Positions 267 to 23,837 of a DNA stretch of 39,487 nucleotides are shown piece by piece. The stretch is from a virus, in IMG/VR virus record IMGVR_UViG_3300044492_000304, positions 1 to 39,487 of that record; one strand, 5' to 3'. The notes under the pieces are model-generated. The model was not told the DNA's origin and did no database searches. It saw only the letters and a list, made by a program, of their open reading frames with translations. The position numbers and the translations under genes were made by a program. How positions within the stretch are numbered: the first letter of the stretch is position 1; every line of letters starts with the position of its first letter.

Positions 267-1166
267 GTGCCGCGTAGTAAGAACCCGGACGGAACGCCCA
301 AGATCTATCCATCCGACCGCCGCCGCGCTGAGCAGGGCCAGATCGCCCCCGCCGATCTGGTCGCTCGCGTTGGCCCCCGCCCCCGGGTGAAGCGCGAACC
401 CCCGCCAAAACCGCCGCAAAAACCGGGGGTCCGCAATCGGCCAAGCCAGGCCAGGGGCCCCACTGGCGCCGGTCATCACTGGTCAAACGACCCCTTGAAA
501 ATGCAGCGATTGACGCTGGTTGAGCAGTACCGCCTGGCCGGGCTGAGTGCCTGGGAAACCGCGCAGGCGATGCACATCGATCAGCAAATGGTGCTTGACG
601 ACTGGGCGCGGCTGAACGAGTTGTGGCTGGCGCGGACGAGCGACACGCAGGAGCAGATGCGCAGCGAGGCCATCCGTCGCCTGGACGGCGTCATCCGCCA
701 GGGGCTCGAGCTACTGCGGATGGACGAGGCCTACACCCAGGCCGTCCTGTTCAACCTGCCGATCAAGCTGACCTGCGCCGGGCGCCAGGAGCACCGCGTC
801 GAAGACCTGCGCCTGGCCGACGCGCTGGGCCCGGCCAACACGGCGGCCACCTGGGGCGACTCGTTCTCCTGCCTGGCGCCGCACGAGATGCTCAAGCGGG
901 TCCACCTCGACGACAAGTCGAGCGCCAACTACAGGCGCATCGCGGGCCAGGTACTGCAGGCGATCAACACGGCGATCATGCAGCAGGCCAAGATCCAGGG
1001 TCTGGTCATCGAGAAGCGAGCGCTGACCAACGCCCAGGGCGAGGATCTGCCTGCCGCGCTGCGGACGCTGCTGCTCGAGGATGACCCGCCCGCCCAGACC
1101 GCGCTGCCGTCACCGCGCAATGGCCTGGACAACGGTCACGTCGCGCCCTACGGTGAGGCGGTATGA
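267..1166 (+). CDS. Probable terminase small subunit
   Basis: This is a 299-residue protein. Residues 1-75 are basic and Pro-rich and look disordered. A helical segment follows (MQRLTLVEQYRLAGLSAWET and on) with a helix-turn-helix-like pattern of the kind seen in phage small terminases: a sensor-like helix, a short turn (LAGLS), then AWETAQAMHI. The rest is helical, with a disordered acidic tail. I chose GTG 267 because the open frame upstream overlaps the preceding gene and has unusual Arg/Ser-rich composition. The role, recognising genome DNA and loading the large terminase, is inferred from the HTH and from its position a few genes before terL. No specific family was confirmed; another DNA-binding protein is possible. 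Confidence 0.55.
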   Translation: MPRSKNPDGTPKIYPSDRRRAEQGQIAPADLVARVGPRPRVKREPPPKPPQKPGVRNRPSQARGPTGAGHHWSNDPLKMQRLTLVEQYRLAGLSAWETAQAMHIDQQMVLDDWARLNELWLARTSDTQEQMRSEAIRRLDGVIRQGLELLRMDEAYTQAVLFNLPIKLTCAGRQEHRVEDLRLADALGPANTAATWGDSFSCLAPHEMLKRVHLDDKSSANYRRIAGQVLQAINTAIMQQAKIQGLVIEKRALTNAQGEDLPAALRTLLLEDDPPAQTALPSPRNGLDNGHVAPYGEAV

Positions 1167-1363
1167 CCGACCAAGCCCCCGCCTATCCTGCCGCGCAATG
1201 CCCGACCTGCCACCGCTGGCACAGCCAGGCGCTCGAGGAGGGCATGTCGACGACCCTCGTCTGCGGCTGCGGCAAGCTGCTGAAGCTCGAGCGCGGCGTC
1301 GGCGGCAGCAGCCTGGTGGTCACCGAGCAGGCCCAACTTCCGCGCCCGGTCGCGCCTGAGTGA
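1163..1363 (+). CDS. Small zinc-ribbon-like protein
   Basis: This 66-residue protein starts at ATG 1163, overlapping the preceding stop as ATGA, so it is probably translationally coupled. It has CPTC near residue 13 and CGC near residue 34, two cysteine pairs spaced as in small zinc ribbons. The linker holds WHSQ, which may add a ligand. The C-terminus is short and Pro-rich. Function is unknown. The next gene also has two Cys-pair motifs, so the two may have related roles, for example in binding DNA or protein near the packaging machine. Confidence 0.75.
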   Translation: MTDQAPAYPAAQCPTCHRWHSQALEEGMSTTLVCGCGKLLKLERGVGGSSLVVTEQAQLPRPVAPE

Positions 1364-1728
1364 TGGCCCAGCGCTGGGCAGTGACCTGCAAGCTGTGTCA
1401 CGGCCCAGCCTTCGTCGTCCTGGGCGCGCTGCCCCGGACGACCGACGTGGTCACCGCCGCGCAGTGTCAGCACCTCGACGGGCGGCCGCTGGTCGGCACC
1501 GACGCGCTCGAGTGCGACACCTGCGGCAAGGACTTCACGCTCCAGGGCGTCGAGCCGAGCGACCAGTGGACGCTGCTGCCCGAGACCTTCAGCCAGGCCC
1601 ACGCGCCGAGCGACACGCCGTTTGGCCGAGCCGCCGATCCACGTGACATCGTCCGCGTCCGCCTCGCCATCCAGGCGCTGCAGCGGCCCCGCGCCCGGCG
1701 CCGCCTGGCGCGGAGTCCCGCCCGGTGA
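1363..1728 (+). CDS. Small protein with two Cys-x-x-Cys motifs
   Basis: The ATG at 1363 overlaps the preceding TGA as TGATG; a GTG three bases earlier is also in frame. The 121-residue product has CKLC near the N-terminus and CDTC near residue 55, the layout of a zinc-binding fold. WTLLPETF follows, then an Arg-rich tail (RPRARRRLARSPAR) that could contact nucleic acid. No enzyme motif is visible. It sits in an overlapping run between the terS-like gene and terL. Function is unknown. Confidence 0.7.
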   Translation: MAQRWAVTCKLCHGPAFVVLGALPRTTDVVTAAQCQHLDGRPLVGTDALECDTCGKDFTLQGVEPSDQWTLLPETFSQAHAPSDTPFGRAADPRDIVRVRLAIQALQRPRARRRLARSPAR

Positions 1729-1868
1729 ATCCCGACGACGAGGAAGTGGTGTACCGCCTGACCTGGCTGAAGCTGCGCTACCTGGCGGTGGCGCTCGCCC
1801 TGGGCGCCGTCGGCTGGCTGGGCCTGATCCTCGTCATCGCCGCCGTCCGCCACTGGCTGGGCTGGTGA
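1725..1868 (+). CDS. Small single-pass membrane protein (47 aa)
   Basis: GTG 1725 overlaps the preceding stop as GTGA. The product begins with an acidic stretch (VNPDDEEVVYRL) and then has one strong hydrophobic helix, about residues 19-41 (YLAVALALGAVGWLGLILVI), ending RHWLGW. It is the first of three consecutive overlapping microproteins, each with one membrane segment. Codon use matches the neighbours. Function is unknown; small phage membrane proteins in packaging regions can be holins or accessory lysis factors, but nothing here proves that. Confidence 0.6.
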   Translation: MNPDDEEVVYRLTWLKLRYLAVALALGAVGWLGLILVIAAVRHWLGW

Positions 1869-1963
1869 GCTTGAGCCGTGACGCGCTGGTGCTGTGGATC
1901 CTGTTCCTGTTCTTTGCGGGGCTGGTCATCGGCACGACGATCTTCGTGCTGACGAGGCGGTGA
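1865..1963 (+). CDS. Membrane microprotein (32 aa)
   Basis: GTG 1865 overlaps the previous TGA as GTGA. The product is almost entirely one membrane helix (LVLWILFLFFAGLVIGTTIF), with a short N-terminus and the positive C-terminal end LTRR. The tight overlap with genes on both sides and the preserved codon bias argue that it is translated. It has no homologue I recognise. Confidence 0.5.
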   Translation: MSLSRDALVLWILFLFFAGLVIGTTIFVLTRR

Positions 1964-2034
1964 GCAGCGAGGTGCTCTGGCTGGTCATGATGCTCTTCTT
2001 CGTCGCCCTGCTGTGGCTGGTGCTGCGCCGCTGA
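1960..2034 (+). CDS. Membrane microprotein (24 aa)
   Basis: GTG 1960 overlaps the preceding stop as GTGA, and its own TGA at 2032-2034 overlaps the ATG of the large terminase as TGATG. The product is a single hydrophobic helix (EVLWLVMMLFFVALLWLVL) ending in two arginines. It could be a real membrane peptide or mainly a means of coupling terL translation to upstream genes. Very short, so confidence is moderate. Confidence 0.45.
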   Translation: MSSEVLWLVMMLFFVALLWLVLRR

Positions 2035-3440
2035 TGGTGCTGCTGACGCACGAGCAGCAGGCCCGCCTGGCGCAGGTCATCCGCCGCTGCAAGCAGGACC
2101 GCTGCGAGTTCAGCCGGGTCTTCTTCGGCAAGGATCTGCGCGAGAGCCCGTGGCAGGTCGACGCGGTCAACATGGGCGGCACCATCTCGACCAAGGTCGC
2201 CGGGCGGCGCTCGGGCAAGACGCTGACGACGACCGTCGAGGCGATGCACGCGCTCGCCACCCAGGCCCGCAAGACGTGGTACGTGACGGGCCCCAGCCTC
2301 GACCAGGCCAGCCTCTACTTCAACGAGATCGAGCAGGCCGCGCAACACCCGAACGGGATGATGGCGGCGCTGCTGGACGGGCCGATCAAGCGCTCGCCGT
2401 TCCCCAGCCTGAAGCTGGTGACGGGCTCCGAGCTACATGCCCGGTCGACCGCTCGAGACGGCGTCTACCTGCGCGGCAAGGGCGCCAACGGCGTCTGCGT
2501 CACCGAGGCCGCCTTCATCAAGGACAAGGTCTACAGCGAGGTCATCCGGGCGATGGTGCTCGACCGGGGCGGCGTCATCCGCCTCGAGAGCACGCCCAAC
2601 GGGCAGAACTACTTCCAGACGCTGCACAACCTGGCCAACGGCGAGCAGCGCGTCCTGCTCGACGGCTCGGGCCGCATCTACACCGACCCGACGCGCTACT
2701 ACCGCACCATCCACGCGACCGTCTTCGACAACCTGGCCGTGCCGCGTGCGGAGATCGAGCGGATCCGCCTCGAGGTGCCCGAGTACGTCTGGCTGGTCGA
2801 GTACCTGGCGCAGTTCGTGGCCGACGAGGAACTGGTCTTCGACTGGGGCCTGCTGGCCGACCTGTTCGATGAGGACTACCACCAGGCACTGGGCCCGGAA
2901 CTGGGCCACCGCTACGTCATCGGCGTCGACCTGGCCCAGGTCCGCGACTACACCGCGATCATCGTCCTCGACGTCACCCGCTGGCCGATCCGCCTGGTGC
3001 GCTGGCTGCACTACCGGGGCAAGCCCTACACGGGTCCAGGCAGCGTCGTCGAGGACGTCAACCTGCTGCGCCGCGACTTCAACAACGCCCGCGTGCTGAT
3101 CGACGCCACCACCGAGCGCGGCGTGGCCGAGAGCGTCGTCGGCGCCGAGGCCTTCACCTTCACCCAGAGCAGCCGCAACGCCATCCTGAGCAACCTGCAG
3201 GTGCTGCTCCAGAACCGCAAGTTCGAGCTACCCGCTGGCTTCACCCGCCTGCGCGACGAGCTACGGGCGCTGCGCCGGGTGCGCAAGGCAGGCAGCCAGA
3301 ATGCGCGCATCGACCACCCGGACGACGGCCACGACGACACCGTGATGAGTCTGGCGCTGGCCGCCTGGCCGCTGCGCGCCACGGTCTCGCCCGGCAGCCG
3401 TGACGCCATCGAGGCGGTCGTCTCGGGGAGCTTCGCCTAA
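2034..3440 (+). CDS. terL: Terminase large subunit (TerL)
   Basis: This 468-residue DNA-packaging motor has an N-terminal ATPase and a C-terminal nuclease. The P-loop is GRRSGKT at residues 57-63 (Lys62). A Walker B-like strand ending VCVTEAAF has its catalytic Glu near 158, and RLESTPNG fits the coupling motif. The RNase H-like nuclease has acidic residues in GVDLAQ (Asp299), LIDATT (Asp357) and GHDDT (Asp434/435). ATG 2034 overlaps the preceding microgene stop; an in-frame GTG at 2013 would lie inside that gene. The length is normal for TerL. The portal gene follows 25 bases downstream. Confidence 0.95.
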   Translation: MVLLTHEQQARLAQVIRRCKQDRCEFSRVFFGKDLRESPWQVDAVNMGGTISTKVAGRRSGKTLTTTVEAMHALATQARKTWYVTGPSLDQASLYFNEIEQAAQHPNGMMAALLDGPIKRSPFPSLKLVTGSELHARSTARDGVYLRGKGANGVCVTEAAFIKDKVYSEVIRAMVLDRGGVIRLESTPNGQNYFQTLHNLANGEQRVLLDGSGRIYTDPTRYYRTIHATVFDNLAVPRAEIERIRLEVPEYVWLVEYLAQFVADEELVFDWGLLADLFDEDYHQALGPELGHRYVIGVDLAQVRDYTAIIVLDVTRWPIRLVRWLHYRGKPYTGPGSVVEDVNLLRRDFNNARVLIDATTERGVAESVVGAEAFTFTQSSRNAILSNLQVLLQNRKFELPAGFTRLRDELRALRRVRKAGSQNARIDHPDDGHDDTVMSLALAAWPLRATVSPGSRDAIEAVVSGSFA

Positions 3441-3465: not shown

Positions 3466-5007
3466 ATGCCGAACCCGATCACGTCGCTGCTGTCTCGAGC
3501 GGCCAATCGTCTGGCCTATGGCGAGACCGACCCCTACGCGCCGCTACGGCACGACGGCGCGGCGATCACGGGCACGGGCTGGTGGCCGAACGCGGGCTCC
3601 AACTTCGACACCTCGCGGGTCGACTACGCTCGAGCGCGCAGGCTCTACCGCAACCAGATTCCGCAGTACAAGCTGGGCGCCCACTTCGCCCGGCCGATCA
3701 TCAACTTCACCGCTGGCTACATCGGCGTGCCGCACTTCAAGAGCAAGGCCGAGGTCGACGAGGCCGACGCGGCGCTCAACGAGTTCGATGAGAAGTTCGT
3801 CTCGACGTTCCTGACGGTCAACCGCAACTGTCTGCGCGACGGCGACGTGTTCCTGCGCCTGGACTACGTCAAGGATCGCTTCAGCGGCCGCCAGCGCTTC
3901 GACATCCGCCTCGAGCATCCCGAGTGGGTCACGCCGCTGCTGGATCCGATCACGGGCGAGTGGGACGCGCTGGTCATCAACCACCCGGTCTACCCGACCA
4001 ACCGGCCCGACAGCCAGGTCCAGCCGAGCTACCTGATCACCGAGACGCTGACCGCCGACACGATCACCGTCAAGGCCGACGAGCGCGCCCCCGCCGACAT
4101 CCGCCTGCGCTACCCGGGCGAGCCGCGCCCGAATCCGTGGGGCTTCATCCCGGTCGTTCACTTCAAGAACGAGCCCGAGGAGAACCAACTCTACGGCTGC
4201 AGCGACCTCGAGCCGCTCGAGCCGCTCCTGCGGGCCTATCACGACACGATGATGGTCGGCAATCAGGGCATCCGCCTGTTCGCCAAGCCCAAAGTCAAGT
4301 TCATCCTGAAGGACGTCAACCGCTTCCTGGCTGACAACTTCCCCGGCTGGAAGCCCGGCCAGCCCGTCGACTTCCAGGGCCATGAGATCTTCCTGCTGAC
4401 CGAGGGCGAGGACTCGAACTACATCACCGCCGAGCCGGGCACCGCTGGCGTGGGCACGCTGCTCGAGTACCTCTTCTACTGCATCGTCCAGAGCAGCCAG
4501 ATCCCCGAGTTCGTCCTGGGCACGGCGGTCGCCTCGAGCCGGGCGAGCGTCGACTCGCAGATGGGGCCGTTCGTCAAGACGGTCGAGCGGAAGCGGATGA
4601 TGTCGACCGACCCGTACGTCGAGACGCACGAGATGTTCCTGGCGATGGCCAGCAAGGCGCCGGGCTTCGACATGCCCGCGCTGCTGACCTACGAGGTCGA
4701 GCCGTCCTGGCCCGAGATCGCCGCCAAGGACGAGGCGGCGGTGGCCGCGACGGTCCTGACGCTGATGCAGGCGATGCAGGTCGGCACGTCGGCCGGGCTG
4801 ATCAGTCTCGAGGGCGCCAACGAGTTCCTCCAGGGCTTTGTCCCGACGATCCTGCCGTGGCTGTCCGAGGGCACCGAGGACGAGCGCCGCCGCGTGCTAT
4901 CCAGTATGGCCTGGCTCGAGCGGGTGCAATCGGGCGGCCTGCCATTCGACGGCGCCGACGTTACCGACGAGACTGACCTCGAGCAGCCGCCAGGCGCCGT
5001 CGCCTGA
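3466..5007 (+). CDS. Portal protein
   Basis: This 513-residue protein would form the dodecameric ring at the capsid vertex through which DNA passes. It follows terL directly. ATG 3466 is preceded by GAGGAAGG at 3451-3458, a good ribosome site. The sequence has the portal pattern: a variable N-terminus, a mixed alpha/beta clip and wing region, then a conserved helical stem (LEPLLRAYHDTMMVGNQGIR) and SSQIPEFVLGTAVASSRAS in the crown-proximal part. The C-terminus is acidic and disordered (DVTDETDLEQPPG). Family assignment rests on pattern and position. Confidence 0.9.
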   Translation: MPNPITSLLSRAANRLAYGETDPYAPLRHDGAAITGTGWWPNAGSNFDTSRVDYARARRLYRNQIPQYKLGAHFARPIINFTAGYIGVPHFKSKAEVDEADAALNEFDEKFVSTFLTVNRNCLRDGDVFLRLDYVKDRFSGRQRFDIRLEHPEWVTPLLDPITGEWDALVINHPVYPTNRPDSQVQPSYLITETLTADTITVKADERAPADIRLRYPGEPRPNPWGFIPVVHFKNEPEENQLYGCSDLEPLEPLLRAYHDTMMVGNQGIRLFAKPKVKFILKDVNRFLADNFPGWKPGQPVDFQGHEIFLLTEGEDSNYITAEPGTAGVGTLLEYLFYCIVQSSQIPEFVLGTAVASSRASVDSQMGPFVKTVERKRMMSTDPYVETHEMFLAMASKAPGFDMPALLTYEVEPSWPEIAAKDEAAVAATVLTLMQAMQVGTSAGLISLEGANEFLQGFVPTILPWLSEGTEDERRRVLSSMAWLERVQSGGLPFDGADVTDETDLEQPPGAVA

Positions 5008-5037
5008 TCTGCCGTGGGGCAGGGAAAGTGGGTCTAT

Positions 5038-5202
5038 ATGAGTCAGCGAGCGCCGCTGTACGTCACGCCGCTGGGCGGCACTATCGGCACCATCATCGCC
5101 GCGCTGCTGCTGGTGGCCGCCATCGTGTTATGGCTGACCAACCAGATGGATCCCAAGCTGTGCGCCATGTTCGCCGCTGCGGCGCTGGCCCGGCTGCTGT
5201 GA
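5038..5202 (+). CDS. Small membrane protein downstream of portal
   Basis: This 54-residue product has one strong membrane helix (GTIIAALLLVAAIVLWL) and a second weaker hydrophobic stretch (LCAMFAAAALARLL), so it may cross once or twice. ATG 5038 is supported by a purine-rich AGGGAAAG about 10 bases upstream. It ends 25 bases before the stop of a convergent minus-strand gene. It could be a holin-type or inner-membrane protein; there is no decisive motif. Confidence 0.6.
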   Translation: MSQRAPLYVTPLGGTIGTIIAALLLVAAIVLWLTNQMDPKLCAMFAAAALARLL

Positions 5203-5624: not shown

Positions 5625-8600
5625 GTGCCGCCCCAGCCGACCAATAGCGAGATCTACGCCAAGAGCCTGGTCGACGCTCGCGAGGCGTGGGCCAAGCAGT
5701 CCGGGCTGACCCAGGCGCAGGTCAAGAGCGCCTACGGCCAGGCGGCCGCCTCGCTGGGCTCGCGGGTCGCCGCGCTGCCACCGTCCGCGCCCTCGAGCGC
5801 CTGGAACCTGGGCCAGCTACAGCAGGTCATCAGCGACTACGGCAACACGCTCGACCAGCGCGTCCTCGACGCCATGTACGCGGGCATCCAGGCGAGCTTC
5901 CACGACAGCGCCGACAGCGTCCTGAAGTCGAAGGCCAGCGCGGCGTTCGGCAGCGTCTTCGGCCCCGAGGCCGTCGACGCCCACGTCCGCGACGTCAACC
6001 AGCGCGCCGCTGCGGCCTACATGACGCGCACGGGCAAAGACGGCATCAAGCTCAGCGACCGCGTCTGGAAGACCAACGCCCAGTGGCGCCAGGCGACGCA
6101 GGAGGTGGTCCAGAACGCGGTCATCGCCGGGCAGCCGCCCGTGCAGGTGGCGCGCCAGATCGAGCAGTACCTCAAGCCTGGCGTCAACGTGCCGTACAAG
6201 GCCGAGACGGCCAAGCGGCTGCACGTGCCTAAAGACACCTCGATGCCTGCCATGCGGGTGGCCCGGACCGAGATGCAAAACAGTTTCCACGAGGGCACCA
6301 TCTCGAGCCACGGCAGCATGCCGAGCTACCTGGGCATCGAGTGGCACATCGCCACGGGCCTGGGGCATGAGGCCGACATCTGCGACACCTACGCCGCGCA
6401 GGGCTTCTTCCCGAAAGGCACCGAGCCCGCCAAGCCGCACCCGCATTGCTTCTGCACCGCGCTGCCCATCCACCGCTCGAGCGACGACGTGCTCAACGAT
6501 CTTGACGAGTGGCTGGCGCAGCCCGCGAGCCACCCGGAACTCGAGGCCTACTACCAGCAGATCAAGCCGATCCTCGACGTCGAGATCGCGTCGGTGGCGG
6601 GCGCCGCAGGCGGGTCGCTGCTGGGCGGGCACGCCAAAGGCGACAAGGTGCTGATCGACGTCAAGGGCACGCAGGTCATCGCCACGGTGGTGGGCGAGCA
6701 CGTCACCAAGGGCGTCCTGACGCTGCAGGTCGACCCCGGCCAGGGCATGGCCTCGATCAAGGTCTGGCGGGCGCCGAGCAAGGTCGTCGCCTACACCGGG
6801 CCGCCGACGCCGCCCGTGCCGCTGGCCGCCGTACCACCCAACCCGCTGGTCTCGCCGTTCGGTGGCCTGGCCGTCGGCCACGTCGTCTACGCCACGGCGG
6901 GCCAGCACCTGGGCAAGGTCGGCTGGGTCCAGGGCACCAAGGCCAGCAACGGCACGCTCGACGTGCTGTGGGAGGACGGCTCGAGCAACTGGGTCGTCCA
7001 CCAGAACCTGCAGATGGCGCCCACGCCAACGGTCACCCCCGCTGTCGGCCTGCAGGTCAAGCTGAACATGCCCGAGCAGGCGCTGCTGCACAACCAGATT
7101 GCGACGATCACCAAGGTCGAGTCGGGCGACCTGCTGACACTCAACGTCACCGTCAACAACCAGCCGTTCGAGTTCAACCTCGAGCCGACCAGCCTGTTCA
7201 AGCTGGCCGAGGTGCCGCTGCCGCCGCAGATCCCGGGCAGCCCGGCGCCCGTGGTCGCGCCACCGCCCGCGCCACCGATCATCGGCTACGTCGATAGCCC
7301 CGGCCACCCGCAGCACGGCGCGCCAGTCACGCAGATTCTGCCCAACGAGACCGTCCAGTTCGCGGACGGCAGTTTCGGCTACGGCCTCGACGCCACCTTC
7401 GACATCTCGCCCGGCCCGCCGCCAGGCACGCCGCACGCGCCACCACCACCACCCGCGCCTGCACCTGTGACGCCGCCGCCCGTGCCCGCCGGGTTCCAGA
7501 TAGGCGATCAGGTTCAGGTCAACGACGCGCTCTCCGAGCACCACGGCAAGACGGGCGTGATCGACAACGAGACGGGCGTGATCCTGTTCGTCAAGCTGGC
7601 GGAAGGCACCATCATCGCCATCCCCAAGCTCTACGCGGCGACCAATCTGCTGCCCGCCAGCACCGTGCCGCCGCCGCCTGCTCAGACCGTGCCGCAGGCC
7701 GTCAATCAGGTGCCCCAGCTAGGCAACATCAACCACCTCTACACGGGCCACTACGTCACCGTCTACGACCCCGGCGGCCCGCATGACGGCAAGAGCTACC
7801 AACTCGTCGAGGACGTCGACCTGATCGGCCCGCAGGGCACGGTCGTCCTGTGGGAGGACGCCGCCCACACCAAGGAGATCTACCTCAACAAGGACAAGCT
7901 CTACGACCCGACGCTGCCGCTGGTCGACCTCGTGCCGCTGGCCCGGCCGCTGGCCAAGCTCGAGGATCTGGTGACGGGCGACCAGGCCGTCTACATGCCG
8001 ACGGGCGACACCGTCTGGCTGGGCGACACGCCGCACACGGCCATCTCGGGCCAGGTCATGGTCTATCCCTCGAAGGCCGCCTATGACGCGGGCACGGGCG
8101 GCACGCTGGCCGAGAATACCGACCTCGACCCGGTGCCGGGCACGCTGGTCCATGCCGAGAAGCCGCTGCACCAGCTAGGCGTCGGCGCCAAGGTCGTCGT
8201 CAACGACCCCGGCTCGAACTGGCACGGCAAAGAGGTCACGCTCAACTACCCGACGTTCGGCCTGTACGGCGGCAGCACCGTGGCGGTCACCGACGCCAGC
8301 GGCGCCATGACCACGCTCAAGCTGAACGAGCTAACGACGGTCTGGCAGATGACGGCGACCAGCGCGCCGGGCCAGATCATGCCTGCGCCCGGCCCCAAGC
8401 CGCTCAACGCGCACACGACGGGCGATCTGGTCATGGTCAAGCCGGGCATCGGCATCGACCACGGCGGCCAGGTCGTTGAACTGATCACGCCGCTGGTCGG
8501 CGCGCTCGCGCACGAATACATCACGGTCAAGCTGGGCGATGGCTCGTCGGCCGTGGTCAACGCGGACGACCTGGCGGTGGTGCCGCCGCTGCCCACGACG

Positions 8601-11600
8601 CCCGTGCTGGGGCAAGAGTTCGTCAGCCAGTCGGTCGAGCACCTCAAGGCGGGCGACAAGGTCATCTACAAGACGACGGGCGCGGTCATCACGCTCAGCG
8701 CGGACGCCGACCCGAGCAGCGAGTCGCTCTACTTCCTCAACGCGCAGGGCACCCAGGACGTCGTCTACTTCGACGAGGTCAACGTCCACCCCGACTCGTG
8801 GTACGGGCTCAAGGTCGCCAAGGCCAAACACAAGCTCGAGGACTTCGAGACGGGCGATCTGGTCTACATCAACTCGCCCGGCGATCCGTACCACGGCCAG
8901 GCCCTGCCGCTGCTGCACGACCTGGCGGGCTACCTGCCCGACGACTTCGTCGACCTCGAGCTACCCGGCGGGCAGTCGCTGAGCTACTACCTGAAGAACC
9001 TGTCGGCTCGCGTCTCGCCGCCACCTGCGCCGCCCGCCACGGCCGCCGCCCAGGCGCCTGCACCCAAGACGGGCGACACGGTCATCGTCCACCAGCCCAA
9101 CGGCACGTTTCACGGCCTCGAGGTGGTCCTGCTGCAGGACTTGGCCGGGCTGCCACCGACGCACGACGTGCAGGTCAAGGTGCTGACCACCGACGCCAAC
9201 CTGGGCGTCCTGGCGGGCGACACGCTCTACTTCGACGCGGGCCAACTGAAGCCCGCACCGCCGACCGCGCCTGGCGTGCCGCAGCCGGTGCCAGCCCCGG
9301 CGGGGACCGTGGACGTGACCCAGAAGGGCACCAAGGTCACCACCGAGTACAAGGGCCACCCGGTCACGGGCACCGTCCAGTCCTACAACGCAGGCAAAAA
9401 GGTAGTGGTGATCAAACCAGATCAGCCTGTGCCTGGTTTGACGGCCAAGACCTTCACCAAGGCGCCCGCCAAGGTCCAGGCGGTGGTGCCGCTGACGCCC
9501 ACCGCGCTCCTGCCACCGCCACCGCCACCTGCGCCACCACCACCTGTCCAGACGCAGCCGCTGCCGCCGCCGACGCACACCATCGACCACCTGAGCCCGG
9601 GCGACAAGGTCATCATCAACCTGCCTGGCAGCGCCAGCCACGGCCTGGAGGGCACGCTCAAGAGCGGCCAGCAGGGCAGCCAGCATCCGTTCTTCGTCGT
9701 CGACGTCAGCGGCGGCGTGGGCGAGAAGATCTTCCTGAAGAGCGAACTGCTGTCGGTTACCCCGCCGCCGCCGCCGTCACCCGCGACGCCGCAGCAGGTC
9801 GCGCTCGAGCAGATGGTCCAGGGCCACGTGGTCATCGTGAACGCCCCGGGCGCCAGCAACCACGGCTACGAGGCCAAGCTGCTCGATCCAGTGATGGCCA
9901 CCGACGACACCACGGGCGTGCTGCTCGAGATGGTGTCCGGGCCTAACGCCGGGCTGACCTACGTCTACTTCAAGACGCAGCTACTCGCGCCCGGCACGCC
10001 CATCGCGGCCGTCACGCCGCCACCCGCGCCGCCTGCGCCAGCAGGCCCGGCAATGACCGTCACGACCAAGGGCGCCATCGTCACCACGGATTACCAGGGC
10101 ATCCCGGTGACGGCCGTCGTGCTCAGCTACAACGCGGGCAAAAAGGTCGTCAACCTCAAGCCTGTCACGCCCGTGCCGGGCGTCAAAAACAAGTTCACCA
10201 AGGCGCCGGGCAAGGTCACGCTGGTGCCGCAGCCAGGCGTCACCGCCGCGCCTGCGCCACTGACGCCAACGCCCACGCCGCCTGCGCCAGTGGCCGTCCC
10301 AGCGCCGCCTGCGGTGCCCGTGCTGCCACCCGGCCAGGCGGCCACCCAGGGCCAGCCTGCCAAGTCGCCCACGAGCATGCAGGTCACGCACCAGCCCGTC
10401 GGCGGCGGTCACCAGAAGACCATCTACAAGGCGCCCGACGGCACGACGTGGATGTTCAAGCCCGACGTCAACGCGGCTCGCGCCGAGCAGGCTGGCTACA
10501 ACGTCCAGACGCTGCTGGGGCTGCCGACGCCCGAGCTACACGTCATCAGCCACAACGGCCAGGTCGGCTCCTTTCAGCAGTTCCACCAGGGCATCAAGGG
10601 TGAGGTGACGCTGTCGGGCATCAAGAACCTGACCACCGCCCAGCGCGCCCAGATCCAGCAGCATCAGGTCGTTGACTGGCTCATCAGCCAGCACGACTCG
10701 AACGAGGGCGCCATGCTGATCGGCGCCAACGACGAGATCCTGGCCATCGACAAAGGCCAGGCCTTCAAGTTCCTGCTCACCCCCGGCGAGAAGCTGCACT
10801 GGACCTACAAGCCGAACCCCAACCAACTGGTCTATCAGCCGCTCTTCGAGGGCTACATCGGCAACAAGTTCCAACTCGAGCGGAGCGCCATCGAGCCGAT
10901 CCTGCAGAAGATCGAGGCGCTCAGCGACGACGACTTCAAGGCGGCCATCAAGCCCTACGTCGATCACGCCGTGGCCCAGGGCTTCGCGCCCAACGAGGCC
11001 GCGATCTACACCAAGCTGCTGGCCCGCAAGGCCTCGCTCCGGGCCGACTTCGACAAGCTGTACGACCAGGCCGACGCCGCCGCTGGCCGCTCGAGCGGAC
11101 CCTCGCTGCGCCAGGCGACGACCGCGCCGCCTGCGCCACCCGCGCCCGCGCCACCAGCCGCCACCGCCACCTCGACAGGCGCGTCGGCCAATCAGGTCAC
11201 GCCGATCACGCCGCAACTGGCGGCCGAGGTCAAGCGCGCTGGCACGCACGGCAAGTCGATCATGGTCGCGGGCAGCGACATCGAGAGCGGCACCGTCCAC
11301 CTCTACCAGATGCCCGTCACGGGCGATGGCACCAAGCTAGTCATCTCGACCAAGGTCCGTGCCGATGGCGAGACCAAGCTAAAGCAGCACCTCGAGGGCC
11401 TGCCCGCCAACGCGGCCACCGGGCCTGGCGCGTCAGCCTCGTCGTCCTCGAGCTACAGCCCGGCGCCCGCCGCCGACCCGCACTGGGTCAAGATCCTCAC
11501 CGCCCTGAAGCACGTCGGCTCGCATACGTCCGCGACGGGCGATCAGCAGGTGACCAAGGTGGCCGACCTGATCAGCCTGGCCAACGACATCAAGAACAAC

Positions 11601-13055
11601 TCGCTGGGCTGGACCGGGCAGAAGAGCGCCTACTACGCCGACATGCTCCAGAAGATCACGGGGCACAGCGTGGCCGAGGTGGCCGTCATGACGCAGGCCG
11701 ACCTGGCGGCCAAGATGCTGACGCTGTGGGCGGGCAACGCGGCGATGCACAGCCAGGTGTTCAGCGAGTACACGCCACCGCCACCACCACCACCGACGCC
11801 CACGGCAGCGGCCGCGCCCGTCGCGCCACCACCACCGACAGGCAAGTTCCAGGCGCGGCAGGCAGCGCCGAGCCAGCTAGCCCGGCGCCTGGTCGATGGC
11901 GAACTGGTGACCGATGGCGTCAGCCGCACGGTCGGCGGCAGCCTGGGCATCGCCGGGCACCACCAGTGGATCGTCGACGACCTGGGCGGCGGCATGAAGC
12001 TCGAGTACATGCCGCACTACGGCCCCGCGTTCTCGCCAGCGCAAGGCAGCGGCCCGTCGCAACCGCACACGTCGGTCAACCCCTACGCTCGCCAGGGCAA
12101 GCTCGAGATCACGCTCGACAACTGGCAGGGCACGCACACCGAGATCGAGGCCGCGCTGCACAAGCTGGGCGAACTGGGCCTCGAGGCGGCGCCCGCGACG
12201 CCCGAGGATGTCGAACTGCTGTACCTCGTCCATCAGGTTCACGCCATGAAGCTCGAGGCCACGGCCAAGTACACCACGCTGCGGGCGGGCATCAACGACT
12301 CGACACCGCTCAGCGAGCAGATCGCCAAGCACCAGAAGTACCTCAGTCAGGAGCTTGGCCAGGACGTTACCAAGATGCCGTCGTACAACCCCGTGCCGCA
12401 GTTCGGCACGGGCTACCGCACGGTCGGCGCCAACGGTCACGAGGTCATCCCCGAGGTCGGCAAGCCGTTCTTCGAGCGCTTCGACATCACTCGCCAGGAT
12501 CTCGAGACCAATCTTCCGCAGCGCGTCCTGACACACGACTCGCAGATGGGCACAGCGCGCTTCCTCGAGACGCTGCTCGCGGGCAACGGCACGATGACCA
12601 ACACCGAGGAGCGCGTCCGCCAGGCGCTGTACGATCCGAGCGCGGCGATGTCGAGCAGCACCGACATGTTCAGCGGCGGCGCCAGCTACTTCTTCACCCG
12701 CCTGGCGCGGGTCAACCACGGCGAAGGCAGTCGAGGCGCGTTCTGGTTCAATACGGAACTGCTGCTGCGGACCGACGCGATTGCCTACAACACCGACCTG
12801 TACGGCCAGTCTGACCCGGCGATGAAGAAGAAGCGCCACGCCACGCTGGACGACTGGGCCACCAAGCAGCACGTGCGCAGCAACAACGAGGTCATCATCA
12901 AGAACGGCTTCGGGATGCTCGACTATCTCGAGCGCATCAGCGCCTCGTCGGCCACCGAGCGCAACAAGTTCATCAAGATGTTCAAGGATCGCGGCATCAC
13001 CCACATTCGCGGCAAGCCCGTCGAGGACATCGTCAAGCTGGGCTACAACCCGTGA
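5625..13055 (+). CDS. Giant MuF minor head protein with kinase-like and possible ADP-ribosyltransferase domains
   Basis: This 2476-residue protein starts at GTG 5625. Residues about 205-280 match the MuF (SPP1 gp7-like) minor head domain: MRVARTEMQNSF, then DICDTY, then HPHCFC. Residues about 330-1535 hold many beta modules joined by Pro-rich linkers. Residues about 1585-1810 resemble HipA/PI4-kinase folds: Lys1612 in TWMFKP, HDSN (Asp1691, Asn1693) as catalytic loop, and ILAIDKGQAF with Asp1709. The usual Asn five residues after the catalytic Asp is absent, so activity is uncertain. The last ~130 residues (GGASYFFTR, LLLRTD with Arg2382, NNEVIIKN with Glu2422) may be an ADP-ribosyltransferase; this is tentative. 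MuF position next to portal suggests packaging inside the head and ejection with DNA. Confidence 0.85.
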   Translation: MPPQPTNSEIYAKSLVDAREAWAKQSGLTQAQVKSAYGQAAASLGSRVAALPPSAPSSAWNLGQLQQVISDYGNTLDQRVLDAMYAGIQASFHDSADSVLKSKASAAFGSVFGPEAVDAHVRDVNQRAAAAYMTRTGKDGIKLSDRVWKTNAQWRQATQEVVQNAVIAGQPPVQVARQIEQYLKPGVNVPYKAETAKRLHVPKDTSMPAMRVARTEMQNSFHEGTISSHGSMPSYLGIEWHIATGLGHEADICDTYAAQGFFPKGTEPAKPHPHCFCTALPIHRSSDDVLNDLDEWLAQPASHPELEAYYQQIKPILDVEIASVAGAAGGSLLGGHAKGDKVLIDVKGTQVIATVVGEHVTKGVLTLQVDPGQGMASIKVWRAPSKVVAYTGPPTPPVPLAAVPPNPLVSPFGGLAVGHVVYATAGQHLGKVGWVQGTKASNGTLDVLWEDGSSNWVVHQNLQMAPTPTVTPAVGLQVKLNMPEQALLHNQIATITKVESGDLLTLNVTVNNQPFEFNLEPTSLFKLAEVPLPPQIPGSPAPVVAPPPAPPIIGYVDSPGHPQHGAPVTQILPNETVQFADGSFGYGLDATFDISPGPPPGTPHAPPPPPAPAPVTPPPVPAGFQIGDQVQVNDALSEHHGKTGVIDNETGVILFVKLAEGTIIAIPKLYAATNLLPASTVPPPPAQTVPQAVNQVPQLGNINHLYTGHYVTVYDPGGPHDGKSYQLVEDVDLIGPQGTVVLWEDAAHTKEIYLNKDKLYDPTLPLVDLVPLARPLAKLEDLVTGDQAVYMPTGDTVWLGDTPHTAISGQVMVYPSKAAYDAGTGGTLAENTDLDPVPGTLVHAEKPLHQLGVGAKVVVNDPGSNWHGKEVTLNYPTFGLYGGSTVAVTDASGAMTTLKLNELTTVWQMTATSAPGQIMPAPGPKPLNAHTTGDLVMVKPGIGIDHGGQVVELITPLVGALAHEYITVKLGDGSSAVVNADDLAVVPPLPTTPVLGQEFVSQSVEHLKAGDKVIYKTTGAVITLSADADPSSESLYFLNAQGTQDVVYFDEVNVHPDSWYGLKVAKAKHKLEDFETGDLVYINSPGDPYHGQALPLLHDLAGYLPDDFVDLELPGGQSLSYYLKNLSARVSPPPAPPATAAAQAPAPKTGDTVIVHQPNGTFHGLEVVLLQDLAGLPPTHDVQVKVLTTDANLGVLAGDTLYFDAGQLKPAPPTAPGVPQPVPAPAGTVDVTQKGTKVTTEYKGHPVTGTVQSYNAGKKVVVIKPDQPVPGLTAKTFTKAPAKVQAVVPLTPTALLPPPPPPAPPPPVQTQPLPPPTHTIDHLSPGDKVIINLPGSASHGLEGTLKSGQQGSQHPFFVVDVSGGVGEKIFLKSELLSVTPPPPPSPATPQQVALEQMVQGHVVIVNAPGASNHGYEAKLLDPVMATDDTTGVLLEMVSGPNAGLTYVYFKTQLLAPGTPIAAVTPPPAPPAPAGPAMTVTTKGAIVTTDYQGIPVTAVVLSYNAGKKVVNLKPVTPVPGVKNKFTKAPGKVTLVPQPGVTAAPAPLTPTPTPPAPVAVPAPPAVPVLPPGQAATQGQPAKSPTSMQVTHQPVGGGHQKTIYKAPDGTTWMFKPDVNAARAEQAGYNVQTLLGLPTPELHVISHNGQVGSFQQFHQGIKGEVTLSGIKNLTTAQRAQIQQHQVVDWLISQHDSNEGAMLIGANDEILAIDKGQAFKFLLTPGEKLHWTYKPNPNQLVYQPLFEGYIGNKFQLERSAIEPILQKIEALSDDDFKAAIKPYVDHAVAQGFAPNEAAIYTKLLARKASLRADFDKLYDQADAAAGRSSGPSLRQATTAPPAPPAPAPPAATATSTGASANQVTPITPQLAAEVKRAGTHGKSIMVAGSDIESGTVHLYQMPVTGDGTKLVISTKVRADGETKLKQHLEGLPANAATGPGASASSSSSYSPAPAADPHWVKILTALKHVGSHTSATGDQQVTKVADLISLANDIKNNSLGWTGQKSAYYADMLQKITGHSVAEVAVMTQADLAAKMLTLWAGNAAMHSQVFSEYTPPPPPPPTPTAAAAPVAPPPPTGKFQARQAAPSQLARRLVDGELVTDGVSRTVGGSLGIAGHHQWIVDDLGGGMKLEYMPHYGPAFSPAQGSGPSQPHTSVNPYARQGKLEITLDNWQGTHTEIEAALHKLGELGLEAAPATPEDVELLYLVHQVHAMKLEATAKYTTLRAGINDSTPLSEQIAKHQKYLSQELGQDVTKMPSYNPVPQFGTGYRTVGANGHEVIPEVGKPFFERFDITRQDLETNLPQRVLTHDSQMGTARFLETLLAGNGTMTNTEERVRQALYDPSAAMSSSTDMFSGGASYFFTRLARVNHGEGSRGAFWFNTELLLRTDAIAYNTDLYGQSDPAMKKKRHATLDDWATKQHVRSNNEVIIKNGFGMLDYLERISASSATERNKFIKMFKDRGITHIRGKPVEDIVKLGYNP
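7281..9880 (+). repeat. Array of diverged beta modules with PG..HG motif in the MuF protein
   Basis: At least nine modules carry a hydrophobic strand followed by a turn of the form PGxxxHG or close to it, for example VDSPGHPQHG, VNDPGSNWHG, INSPGDPYHG, HQPNGTFHG, NLPGSASHG and NAPGASNHG. The pattern GDxVxVxxPG resembles small SH3/KOW-like barrels. The units are diverged at the DNA level and separated by Pro/Ala linkers. Confidence 0.7.
9309..10230 (+). repeat. Duplicated ~57-residue module in the MuF protein
   Basis: Bases about 9309-9485 and 10051-10230 encode near-copies. Both have VTTxY-type starts, then SYNAGKKVV, then PVPG, then FTKAPxKV. They are the most similar pair in the array, so this looks like the latest duplication. 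The copies flank two PG..HG modules, suggesting a multi-module block was copied. Confidence 0.75.
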
Positions 13056-13461: not shown

Positions 13462-13788
13462 GTGCCAATCTTCCAGGCGATGATCGAGAGCTTCGTCAAC
13501 GAGCAGGGCGAGTACTCGCCCGGCGTGTCCTGGCTGTACGACCCGCGCTCGAGCGACATCCGCATCGACTGGCTGCCCGGCTTCGACGCTCGCGGCTACG
13601 CCGACGTCGACCGCCTGGCGGGTGCCCGCGCCGATGGCTGGCACGACGCGGACATCTGGGCCTACTACGCCACGCCGCAGAGCTACAACGGCGTCATCAC
13701 CATGCGCAGCCTGCCCGAGCCGCTCATCGCGCCAGACATGCAGACCGCCGCGATGGCCGTCTTGCGGCGCATGGCAGGCCAGGCCTAG
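13462..13788 (+). CDS. Hypothetical protein (108 aa)
   Basis: GTG 13462 starts 11 bases after the preceding stop. The product is soluble and aromatic-rich (GVSWLYDPRSSDIRIDWLPG, then ADGWHDADIWAYYATPQSYN), with a helical C-terminus (MQTAAMAVLRRMAGQA). It has no cysteine, membrane segment or catalytic motif I can name. It is followed by about 210 noncoding bases and a terminator-like hairpin, so it probably ends the MuF transcription unit. Unknown function. Confidence 0.7.
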   Translation: MPIFQAMIESFVNEQGEYSPGVSWLYDPRSSDIRIDWLPGFDARGYADVDRLAGARADGWHDADIWAYYATPQSYNGVITMRSLPEPLIAPDMQTAAMAVLRRMAGQA

Positions 13789-13927
13789 ACTCGAGCCGCC
13801 ATCATTCGAGCGGGCTGGCTGGCGCTAGAGACCCGTCGCGCAACTGGGCGGATTCCCGGGGCCGCCCGGCCAGTCGCACCAGGGCCAGAGGCGCCTACCC
13901 GGCCGACAGTTTTGTGATGGCATTGCG

Positions 13928-13968
13928 ACGCCCGGCTGGCCTTAACCACCACGCCGGGCGTTTGCTTG
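13928..13968 (+). terminator. Probable intrinsic terminator
   Basis: ACGCCCGGC at 13928-13936 pairs perfectly with GCCGGGCGT at 13953-13961, with a 16-base loop. The stem runs into a T-rich stretch (TTGCTTGT). It lies between the gene ending at 13788 and the lysozyme-like gene at 13999. The 3' T tract is imperfect. Confidence 0.55.
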
Positions 13969-13986
13969 TCACCGAGTCGGGTGCTT

Positions 13987-13992
13987 TACGGT
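13987..13992 (+). promoter_or_regulatory. Candidate -10 box TACGGT before the lysozyme-like gene
   Basis: TACGGT ends 6 bases before ATG 13999, with no Shine-Dalgarno sequence. A TTGTCA at 13966-13971 lies 15 bases upstream and could serve as a -35 box. The same TTACGGTG string occurs before the gene at 14970. Confidence 0.5.
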
Positions 13993-13998
13993 GGTCCG

Positions 13999-14532
13999 AT
14001 GCTCAAACGAGTCGCGGCCGTTCTTCTGCTGACGGCCACATTCGCCACAGCAGCGCAGGCCGAGGAGTTGACCCAGGGTGAAGCCTGGGAACTCGACCTG
14101 CCAGGCATCGAGATCGCAGCAGACGTCGAGGAACTGGCCAACGAGGTTGGGCTCGAGCCGATCCTCCTGCAAGGCGCGGTGAACAGCGTGAAGACGCCAC
14201 CACGCACCTACCTCCAGCACGAGGGCCTGCTCGAGCCGCCTGCTCCAACCCCGGCGAGATCACCTGCAGGCGCCGTGCCAGTCGCGCCCGCGAGCGTCAT
14301 GAACCGCGTCGCCTGCATCGAGGCCAAGGAGTCGGGCGGCGCCAACGTCGCCAACGCTCGCGGCTCAGGGGCAGGCGGGGTGATGCAGTACATGGATTCG
14401 ACCTTTGCCGCGCATGCTCGCGAGATGGGCCATCCCGAGTGGTCGAAGTGGAACCCAGTGCAGGCCAGGGCAGTCGCGGCGCACGACCTGCAGATGGGCC
14501 GCCGAGCGCAATGGGACGTCGGCGGATGCTGA
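13999..14532 (+). CDS. Secreted lysozyme/transglycosylase-like protein
   Basis: This 177-residue protein begins with a classic signal peptide (MLKRVAAVLLLTATFATAAQ, then AEE). After a Pro-rich linker the C-terminal ~75 residues resemble the lysozyme-like fold of small transglycosylases: CIEAKESGGAN with Glu111 as likely acid, then GGVMQYMDSTF, then a helical AVAAHDLQMG. Two cysteines (near 105 and at the last residue) could form a disulfide. The role would be peptidoglycan cleavage outside the membrane, either as a secreted endolysin or as a particle component. It opens the mixed-strand cassette and converges on the minus gene ending at 14536. ATG 13999 is chosen because it starts the signal peptide. 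Confidence 0.75.
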   Translation: MLKRVAAVLLLTATFATAAQAEELTQGEAWELDLPGIEIAADVEELANEVGLEPILLQGAVNSVKTPPRTYLQHEGLLEPPAPTPARSPAGAVPVAPASVMNRVACIEAKESGGANVANARGSGAGGVMQYMDSTFAAHAREMGHPEWSKWNPVQARAVAAHDLQMGRRAQWDVGGC

Positions 14533-14535
14533 CAC

Positions 14536-14913
14536 TCAGTTGGCTGGCGTGCCGCCCTGAGACTTGACGTTGTTCCGCGCCGCCGCCTCGTCATTAGCCA
14601 CCACGGTCATGTCGCCACCGCCCTCGAGGCGGATGACGAAGGTGCGCACCGCTGGCGTCGGCTCGGGCGTCGGCGGTGGCGCGGCGACCGTCGGCGTGGG
14701 CGGCGTGACCGTCGGCGGCACGGCGGTCTGGGCTGCCACGGCGCGCTGCGAGACCAGCACCGGGACGGGCGGATTGGTCGGTCGCGGTGGCGGATTCAGC
14801 CAGGCCTGTTCGGCTGGCGCGATGTGCTCTGCGCCCGGGATCACGCCGGGCGCCAGGAGGCCGATGAGGAACCCCAGCAGGCCAGCCAGCAGCGCGATGA
14901 CGAGCCGTTCCAT
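14536..14913 (-). CDS. Membrane-anchored Pro/Thr-rich protein (minus strand)
   Basis: The minus-strand ATG is at 14913. The 125-residue product has an N-terminal membrane helix (LVIALLAGLLGFLIGLLAPG), a Pro/Thr/Val stalk (PPTVTPPTPTVAAPPPTPEP) and a compact C-terminal segment (TFVIRLEGGGDMTVVAN, then DEAAARNNV) that may be a small beta-alpha domain. It lacks a lipobox, so it is probably an anchored surface protein. It converges on the lysozyme-like gene with only 3 bases between stops. A role in lysis or superinfection exclusion is possible but unproven. Confidence 0.75.
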   Translation of the reverse strand: MERLVIALLAGLLGFLIGLLAPGVIPGAEHIAPAEQAWLNPPPRPTNPPVPVLVSQRAVAAQTAVPPTVTPPTPTVAAPPPTPEPTPAVRTFVIRLEGGGDMTVVANDEAAARNNVKSQGGTPAN

Positions 14914-14925
14914 TGTGGACGCGGG

Positions 14926-14931
14926 AGTCTA
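14926..14931 (-). promoter_or_regulatory. Candidate minus-strand -10 box TAGACT
   Basis: Read on the minus strand, TAGACT ends 12 bases before the ATG at 14913, leaving a leader of only a few bases. No Shine-Dalgarno sequence is visible. It faces the + strand TACGGT box at 14957, so bases 14914-14969 look like a compact divergent promoter region. Confidence 0.4.
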
Positions 14932-14956
14932 AATGCGCCGCCGCCTTGACTTCGGT

Positions 14957-14962
14957 TACGGT
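14957..14962 (+). promoter_or_regulatory. Candidate -10 box TACGGT before 14970
   Basis: TACGGT ends 7 bases before ATG 14970, again without a Shine-Dalgarno sequence. It shares TTACGGTG with the box at 13987. Confidence 0.45.
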
Positions 14963-14969
14963 GACAGAT

Positions 14970-15044
14970 ATGCCGAGAATCCTGAAGTGCAAGCGGTGCG
15001 GTGAGCAGTACGTCGAGGGTCACCATGTATGTGACCCTGGCTAG
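14970..15044 (+). CDS. Zinc-knuckle-like microprotein (24 aa)
   Basis: ATG 14970 to TAG 15044 reads MPRILKCKRCGEQYVEGHHV then CDPG. CKRC plus a following HH and Cys gives four or five potential zinc ligands in 24 residues, resembling the start of a zinc ribbon. It is the first + strand gene after the divergent promoter, and the ATG of the next gene lies inside it. It could be a real microprotein or a leader peptide controlling the next gene. It is very short, but the cysteine pattern is hard to explain by chance. Confidence 0.5.
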   Translation: MPRILKCKRCGEQYVEGHHVCDPG

Positions 15045-15189
15045 GCTCGCCAGGATCGGCTACGTCGCGCTGGTGCTGCTGGGCTTCGTCCTCCTGGCGC
15101 TGCTGCTGGTCAGCATGGTCAGCGGCGACCTGGCCCGGCCGCCCGCCAACTACGCCGCCACGCCGATCTCGCGGCCCGCCAGACCGTAG
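15025..15189 (+). CDS. Small membrane protein (54 aa), holin candidate
   Basis: ATG 15025 is preceded by GAGGG with 5-base spacing; a GTG at 15001 in the same frame would add eight residues. A single membrane helix (YVALVLLGFVLLALLLVSMV) is flanked by positive residues at the N-terminus (LARLARIG) and a Pro-rich tail. One-helix proteins beside a lysozyme-like gene can be holins. It overlaps the preceding microgene by 20 bases in another frame. Confidence 0.6.
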   Translation: MYVTLARLARIGYVALVLLGFVLLALLLVSMVSGDLARPPANYAATPISRPARP

Positions 15190-15371
15190 TGCGGCTGAAG
15201 ATCACCAGCGACGGCACCTCGAGCGGCACGCGCATTGAAAACGAGCAGGGCGAGGATCTGACGCCGCACGTCCGCTCGCTGCGCTGGACGCTCGAGGCAG
15301 GCCGCAACCCGCTCGTCGAGATCACCCTGGTCCGCCTCGAGGCGGACGTCGATATCGATCTAGCCGTCTGA
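15189..15371 (+). CDS. Small conserved-looking phage protein (60 aa)
   Basis: GTG 15189 shares one base with the preceding TAG. The product reads MRLKITSDGTSSGTRIENEQ, then GEDLTPHVRSLRWTLEAGRN and ends in an acidic strand. The layout, strands around an Asp/Glu-rich turn then RSLRWTLEAG then ITLVRLEADV, suggests a small all-beta protein. I recall similar short proteins in many phage genomes but cannot name a family. Its last 12 bases overlap the end of the minus-strand gene at 15360. Confidence 0.65.
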   Translation: MRLKITSDGTSSGTRIENEQGEDLTPHVRSLRWTLEAGRNPLVEITLVRLEADVDIDLAV

Positions 15372-15569
15372 GATCCGCGCCTGGCCCTCGCGGGTGAGCG
15401 CCAGGTTGCGGAACAGGTCGCGCTCCGCGATCAGGTCGCGGCGCTCCGTCTCGAGCGCCTCGATGTGCTTGCTCTTGGCGCCGACGAGCGATTTGAGCAG
15501 GAACGTGATGGTGCCGATCAGCGCGCCGATGATGGTGCCGATGGTGACGACGTCCGCGCCGACCTCCAT
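15360..15569 (-). CDS. Membrane protein with coiled-coil tail (minus strand)
   Basis: The minus-strand ATG at 15569 shares one base with the stop of the upstream minus gene (TGATG), so the two are coupled. The 69-residue product has a membrane helix (VVTIGTIIGALIGTITFLL) then a charged helix with heptad-like spacing (KHIEALETERRDLIAERDLF). This topology resembles XhlA-type or spanin-like lysis accessories. The gene tail overlaps the convergent + gene by 12 bases. Longer upstream extension in the same frame is Asp/Ala-rich and overlaps the stalk gene, so I rejected it. Confidence 0.7.
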   Translation of the reverse strand: MEVGADVVTIGTIIGALIGTITFLLKSLVGAKSKHIEALETERRDLIAERDLFRNLALTREGQARISDG

Positions 15570-20863: not shown

Positions 20864-21487
20864 ATGACCAATCCCACCGAGCCAGGCCCGGCGCCGTCCG
20901 CGACGCCCGCCCCGGCGACCACGGCAGCGGCCGCGCCGCGCCGCACGAGGCCCACCGTGACTGCCCAGACCGACGACAACCAATCGCTCGAGGAGTCGCC
21001 TGTCGAGACGCCCGTCGAGATCGCGCACACGCCGACGCTGCCCGTTGGCCAGGTCAGCAACTACGCCGAGGGCGTGACCAACATCCCGCCGGGCACGCCG
21101 ATCACCGTGGCGGCCGACCCGACCAAGCCGCTCGAGGCGACGCTCCAAGATGCCCAGGCGACGGCCACGGGCGTCACCGTCAGCCAGGCGCCCGGGACCA
21201 TCGAGGTCGCGGCGCCCGCGCCGCTGCCACGGCCCGGCGACGAGCAACTCACACGCGGCACGGCGGCCCACGCCGAGCTTCAGGAGGAACTCACGGGCCA
21301 GGCGCCCGAGATGCCTGACGACTCGACCTCCGAGGCGGCCGCGCAGGCTCAGCGCGAGGCCGAGACGCTGCGGCTCGAGCAGCAGCGCGACGCGGCCGAG
21401 GCGGCCCAGCGCAACCAGCAGAAGCTGTACGAGGCCAACGCTCGCCAGCAGGAGGCCGTCCGCCAGCAGCAGGAGCCAGCCCGCTGA
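20864..21487 (+). CDS. Disordered and coiled-coil protein after the capsid gene
   Basis: ATG 20864 follows AAAGGAGG with 5-base spacing. The 207-residue product starts Pro/Ala/Thr-rich (PSATPAPATTAAAAPRRTRP), has a mid-region with GVTNIPPGTPITVAADPTKP, and ends in a long Gln/Glu/Arg/Ala helix (REAETLRLEQQRDAAEAAQR). It has no known fold. It may be a head-associated or assembly accessory, based on its place between the capsid gene and the connectors. Confidence 0.75.
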   Translation: MTNPTEPGPAPSATPAPATTAAAAPRRTRPTVTAQTDDNQSLEESPVETPVEIAHTPTLPVGQVSNYAEGVTNIPPGTPITVAADPTKPLEATLQDAQATATGVTVSQAPGTIEVAAPAPLPRPGDEQLTRGTAAHAELQEELTGQAPEMPDDSTSEAAAQAQREAETLRLEQQRDAAEAAQRNQQKLYEANARQQEAVRQQQEPAR

Positions 21488-21488
21488 C

Positions 21489-23825: not shown

Positions 23826-23837
23826 CGGGAGGAATGC

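Follow-up and report, generated by a model that had tools for sequence, protein, structure and literature searches.

Two one-helix membrane microproteins encoded beside the large terminase gene of a GC-rich virus, with a possible role in lysis timing

The 39,487-base IMG/VR virus record IMGVR_UViG_3300044492_000304, analysed over its whole length and referred to here as the window, has a GC content of 69% and carries late genes that include those for a terminase, a portal and a contractile-tail sheath. Three very short open reading frames, A, B and C, lead into the gene for the large terminase subunit, terL (Table 1). They lie in three different frames, and each encodes essentially one hydrophobic helix, as judged by hydropathy rather than by a dedicated topology predictor. 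The overlap word GTGA occurs at 1725-1728, 1865-1868 and 1960-1963, and TGATG at 2032-2036 joins C to terL. The lengths, frames, overlaps and one-helix nature of the three peptides had been described in an earlier reading of the sequence (the original prediction), and all match our readout. The start position of B is uncertain, as a TTG at 1871 (giving 30 aa) and a GTG at 1889 are in-frame alternatives and our home-made gene caller chose the latter; the Asp of B that is conserved among relatives is retained from either the GTG at 1865 or the TTG at 1871.

Table 1. Genes of the micro-ORF string, its surroundings and the candidate wall hydrolase in the window
Feature	Position	Strand	Description
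Candidate small terminase subunit	267-1166	+	HTH plus helices; no convincing profile match
Short Cys-containing protein gene	1163-1363		Precedes 1360-1728; no convincing family match
Upstream gene	1360-1728	+	122 aa, Cys-containing, zinc-ribbon-like by eye; 4-nt overlap with A
A	1725-1868	+	GTG start, 47 aa, one-helix membrane microprotein
B	1865-1963	+	GTG start, 32 aa, one-helix membrane microprotein
C	1960-2034	+	GTG start, 24 aa, hydrophobic ORF; 1-nt overlap with terL
terL, large terminase subunit	2034-3440	+	ATG at 2034; PHROG 2, E 1e-31; Pfam Terminase_6N
Peptidoglycan transglycosylase	13999-14532		SLT domain, Sec-like N-terminal signal; nearest separate hydrolase candidate found

A search with TerL recovered five IMG/VR loci, L002 to L006, whose TerL proteins are 80-89% identical. 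Three of these correspond to large contigs (L002 to G001, 70 kb; L003 to G002, 81 kb; L006 to G005, 57 kb), and L004 and L005 complete the set. The five relatives are few and mutually related, so counts of six out of six are not independent observations. A and B are present, in that order, at all six loci (the window and the five relatives). A is 46-63 aa long in the relatives, where its N-terminus is acidic and an Arg preceding the helix and a Trp inside it never vary. Its profile matches at the expected place in every one of the six records with E values of 1e-19 to 4e-26, these being the same six records from which the profile was built. B is 30-33 aa long and has an invariant Asp together with an invariant Gly that forms a [G/A]xxxG packing motif in the helix (GxxxG at five loci, AxxxG in L004). 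For both families, all 15 pairwise scores exceeded those of composition-matched shuffles (p<=0.03), and hydropathy maxima over 17 residues at the six loci were 2.5-2.9 for B and 1.6-2.6 for A.

C is present in the window only. B runs straight into terL in L003, L004, L005 and L006, while the corresponding interval of L002 holds an HTH gene at 730-963 (PF13560, E 1e-8) together with a further pair of 26-aa membrane micro-ORFs, the last of which resembles C to a non-significant degree (p=0.06). We propose that C joined the slot recently and may be dispensable. The HTH gene of L002/G001 (region 718-963) is likely a self-regulating insertion. Two TACCAWTGGTA palindromes occur in this contig, one at 718, just before the start of the HTH gene, and one at 909, inside it; the palindrome was absent from the window, G002, G005, L004 and L005. 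The junctions themselves also vary. A and B overlap by 4 nt in the window, L002 and L003, and are separated by 2 nt in L005 and L006 and by 99 nt in L004; the overlap between the final micro-ORF and the terL start is 1 nt in the window, L003 and L005, 4 nt in L002 and 14 nt in L004, and in L006 the micro-ORF ends 1 nt before that start. The exact overlaps are therefore not the conserved feature, which lies instead in the frames and their hydrophobicity. Broken overlaps or stop codons in relatives had been named beforehand as signs against these genes; the A-B overlap is indeed broken in L004, L005 and L006, and no frame carries a stop.

Overlaps of 4 nt or 1 nt alone are ordinary in this group: in the window, 16 of 36 same-strand neighbours have them, as do 46/113, 32/96 and 32/96 in three related contigs. 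We counted membrane-like ORFs (20-70 aa, 19-residue hydropathy of at least 2.0, both strands) against a control of 30 dinucleotide shuffles. The window contains 13, whereas the shuffles averaged 0.4 and never exceeded 2. Two pairs (one triple) of such ORFs are coupled by a 4-nt or 1-nt overlap, against none in the 30 shuffles; the related contigs G002, G005 and G001 have 0, 1 and 2 coupled pairs, respectively, against none in 30 shuffles of each. It could be argued that A, B and C are not genes at all, merely chance hydrophobic ORFs in GC-rich DNA, given that the ORFs are very short, that pN/pS for A and B is near 1 and that C has no convincing relative. We consider this extremely improbable for the string as a whole in view of the shuffled controls and of the five relatives, in all of which the A and B frames have stayed open and hydrophobic. 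The original prediction had called three hydrophobic frames in exact overlap unlikely to be accidental. For A and B this stands, despite a difference of 36-55% between their DNA in the relatives and in the window, and in our judgement they are genuine genes for which chance can be excluded; for C it is not established, and a non-gene reading of C alone is possible.

Pooled over 15 pairs and using simple counts, pN/pS was 1.01 for A and 0.96 for B, compared with 0.34 for terL, and values near 1 tell against strong constraint on the residues of A and B. In B the fewest differences fall at the second codon position, the main determinant of hydrophobicity (0.33, versus 0.50 and 0.48 at the other positions), and A shows a smaller reduction there (0.44, versus 0.53 and 0.50). 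Neither of the alternative frames of this DNA is hydrophobic, and the +1 frame of B has stops at all six loci. We simulated neutral change by mutating the window sequence, rather than an ancestor, to the observed distance of each relative in 20,000 runs. For B, depending on the relative, 0.2-0.7% of runs gave an open frame with at least the observed hydropathy; for A the fraction was 0.4-5.6%. These fractions were left unmultiplied because the relatives are not independent. A and B are fast-evolving, and these comparisons point to proteins under selection to remain a membrane helix while keeping a few positions fixed.

An SD-like motif precedes A at five of the six loci and is absent from B and from terL at all six; for comparison, it was found at 114 of 214 called genes of at least 100 aa in the four large contigs. 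In every case terL starts between 14 nt before and 1 nt after the point at which the micro-ORF ahead of it ends. A start beside an upstream stop without its own Shine-Dalgarno, which we took as indicating stop-start coupling, was found for terL at six of six loci and for B at five of six (the exception being L004 with its long gap). The string is probably translated in this way. The distribution of SD motifs and the positions of the starts suggest that ribosomes would load at A, pass to B (and C where it occurs) and reach terL by stop-start re-initiation.

The 122-aa gene that overlaps A in the window also precedes A in all five relatives, although L005 shows only its 3' part, and nothing in Pfam or PHROGs matched its product below E 0.04. 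Further upstream, the gene that had been labelled 'terS-like' is best regarded as a candidate, since the label is unproved: the AlphaFold model of its product has a mean pLDDT of 55 (79-92 over a helical stretch at 71-120), and Foldseek ranks 2-8, all to the small terminase of Thermus phage G20c, were non-significant (E 0.3-0.7).

More distant comparisons were made through the portal and the putative major capsid protein, which are 33-39% identical to their counterparts in Bacillus phages such as BSP7, Weizmannia phage Youna2, Clostridioides phage phiCD27 and the Mu-like Bacillus phage BalMu-1. In the first three phages terL and the gene that precedes it share 26 nt (BSP7), 29 nt (Youna2) and 8 nt (phiCD27), with nothing between them, and in BalMu-1 terL is preceded by a short opposite-strand gene and a gap. 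Searches of viral contigs with the portal, the upstream gene and further TerL queries yielded one distant terL with readable upstream DNA, L036, and two weak partial matches, L037 and L038. In L036 (TerL 46-47% identical, GC 46%) a 177-aa ORF, to which the candidate small terminase shows no sequence similarity, runs into terL without micro-ORFs. Alignments of TerL and portal to genome contigs found no relative, and tblastn of window A and L006 B against 50,697 phage records gave no match even at E 10. Judging from these sequences, the upstream gene mostly runs straight into terL in the more distant relatives. A and B look like a gain in this lineage, which typical IMG sample types lead us to assume is of soil origin, with loss elsewhere as the alternative; the best reading is that they occupy a lineage-specific slot directly before terL.

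The claim that membrane peptides do not form a known standard set within packaging operons proved too strong, as T7, Mu and actinophages all offer precedents, whether as terminase-side small membrane lysis genes (T7, Mu) or as holin-like cassettes (actinophages), with which the A-B string may be compared by analogy. T7 has two overlapping membrane spanin genes, 18.5 and 18.7 (Rz/Rz1-like), between terS (18) and terL (19). A and B are likewise overlapping small membrane-protein genes directly before terL and resemble the spanin genes in position and overlap, with the proviso that the small terminase gene here is only a candidate. The T7 proteins, as given in the accessible part of PMC3276506, are 143 and 83 aa long, the second being an Rz1-like outer-membrane lipoprotein, whereas A and B are each one bare helix. 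A two-component spanin was considered and rejected for A (46-63 aa) and B (30-33 aa) on account of their small size and the absence of a family match; their alignments contain no conserved Cys, and they have neither a periplasmic domain nor a lipobox. In Mu, the one-helix releasin gp25 (DUF2730) is encoded two genes upstream of the small terminase gene. The resemblance to A and B lies in the single helix and the proximity to the terminase, and the portal and capsid of the window can be aligned to those of BalMu-1; however, gp25 has 99 aa with a 73-aa cytoplasmic domain, and A and B lack a domain of this kind and matched nothing in Pfam. Membership of the releasin family was likewise rejected for proteins so short and without a DUF2730 match.

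Actinophages carry chains of overlapping holin-like membrane genes, some of them far from the endolysin gene (accessible portion of PMC9671378), and such genes may be chained by ATGA overlaps (accessible portions of PMC13056207 and PMC9671378). A, B and C resemble cassettes such as CaiB gp16-19 and LysF1a/LysF1b in forming a series of membrane genes chained by short overlaps, and differ from them in that the actinophage proteins are larger and that the accessible portions of these reports describe no pre-terL location. The GxxxG packing motif in the helix of B recalls the phage 21 pinholin/antiholin, as does the pairing with a signal-bearing wall enzyme, the phage 21 system being associated with a SAR endolysin. 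In the accessible accounts of that phage, however, the pinholin has two helices and a dual start within one gene, where here there are two genes with one helix each.

Our preferred reading, which we offer tentatively and hold to be possible rather than probable, is that A and B are one-helix membrane microproteins whose job in the terminase-adjacent slot is the control or timing of lysis. On this view they would be a lineage-specific form of the small membrane genes with which phages often set the moment of host lysis. It is drawn from the type of protein (small, one-helix, one of the two with a packing motif), the place beside the terminase and the context of a signal-bearing transglycosylase. 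Going by their hydrophobicity, both peptides would insert into the host cytoplasmic membrane, and the description of a holin as a small protein with at least one transmembrane helix applies to them on the same hydropathy basis. B, as a bare helix with [G/A]xxxG, would be a pinholin-like trigger that oligomerises and makes the membrane potential collapse; A, with its acidic flank, may temper B in the manner of an antiholin. By extension from the phage 21 system, an exported wall enzyme would need a trigger rather than a large hole, which would suit a pinholin-type B. Signal-bearing transglycosylase-type genes are also found in G001 (13533-14060), G005 (about 44630-45239) and G002 (about 23513-24120, minus strand); those of G001 and G005 are Rpf-like by Pfam (PF06737), and that of G002 was recognised by sequence similarity. 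The N-terminal signal, judged by eye, is alike in all four, and the catalytic domain is SLT in the window and Rpf-like in G001 and G005.

Several observations count against a lysis role. The transglycosylase lies 12 kb away from A and B, which are thus not beside the endolysin, and other small membrane proteins (15025-15189 and 15360-15569) do adjoin it in the window and may be the holin instead. Comparison of A, B and C with Pfam and PHROGs named no family and gave no holin match. The near-neutral pN/pS suggests little constraint on the residues of A and B, and a one-helix pinholin of 30 aa would be unusually small. The more specific proposal of a two-gene pinholin/antiholin cassette, one helix each, carried on the same ribosomes as terL and tying the packaging motor to the lysis clock, we regard as a long shot. 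If A and B are lysis triggers, shared translation would tie synthesis of the packaging motor to the timing of lysis, and triggers of about 30 and 47 residues would, to our knowledge, be among the smallest. Even otherwise, A and B illustrate well how gene callers can miss one-helix microproteins or misplace their starts, and how such proteins are recognised less by sequence identity than by the conservation of frame and hydropathy.

The same slot can be explained in other ways. The micro-ORFs could serve chiefly as a translational relay that delivers ribosomes to terL and sets its dosage, with the peptides as by-products loosely kept hydrophobic. This would agree with the missing SD motifs at B and terL, with a terL start that always adjoins the preceding micro-ORF and with pN/pS near 1; yet a pure relay has no need of hydrophobic peptides, whose hydrophobicity is held above the neutral simulation, B retains its Asp and [G/A]xxxG, and SD-less coupling is nothing special in the window, where only 3 of 10 coupled genes of at least 100 aa have an SD. 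We think a relay quite unlikely as the main function. Somewhat unlikely, in our view, is a part in superinfection exclusion or some other function at the membrane surface that has nothing to do with lysis, the pre-terL slot being one that takes up small membrane genes. Genes of this kind would target the host envelope or rival phages, which would account for their rapid change and turnover, and this reading could accommodate the pN/pS values, the restriction of C to the window, the different content of the L002 slot with its HTH gene and extra pair of membrane micro-ORFs, and the small membrane genes (up to 70 aa) scattered elsewhere (6 in the window, 10 in G002, 9 in G005 and 7 in G001). The retention of A followed by B at all six loci is, however, steadier than would be expected of exchangeable accessory genes. 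Finally, A and B might tether TerL or the prohead to the membrane while DNA is being packaged, as their adjacency to terL and coupled translation would allow; but relatives with alignable terminase or portal genes have no gene at that place, we know of no tailed phage that needs a one-helix TerL anchor, and we judge this very unlikely.

Other genes of the window recur in the related contigs. A small membrane protein is encoded directly after the portal in all four large contigs (window 5014-5202; G001 4115-4282; G002 35449-35598, minus strand; G005 35628-35777); it ends in MDPKLCAMF..ALARLL or a similar sequence. Its conservation far exceeds that of A and B, and it gave no convincing family match. 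The head region of the window contains an ORF of 2,476 aa (5625-13055), and the related contigs have equivalents of 2,311-2,621 aa. Long proteins rich in Thr and Pro, each with a single membrane helix at the N-terminus (window 15569-16678, minus strand; G001 14431-15456; G002 21384-22409, minus strand; G005 46433-47791), adjoin a small helix-plus-charged-tail protein, and in the window both are encoded on the strand opposite to the late genes. Flp-type pilin-like or class III signal ORFs were seen at G005 35908-36069, G002 33822-33968 and G001 60258-60404, two of them near the portal gene; matches to PF04964 (E 4e-6 and 5e-6) were below the curated cut-off, and that of G001 was weaker. G002 also encodes a low-affinity iron permease family protein (PF04120, E 9e-41) beside the portal region, at 35073-35447 on the minus strand.
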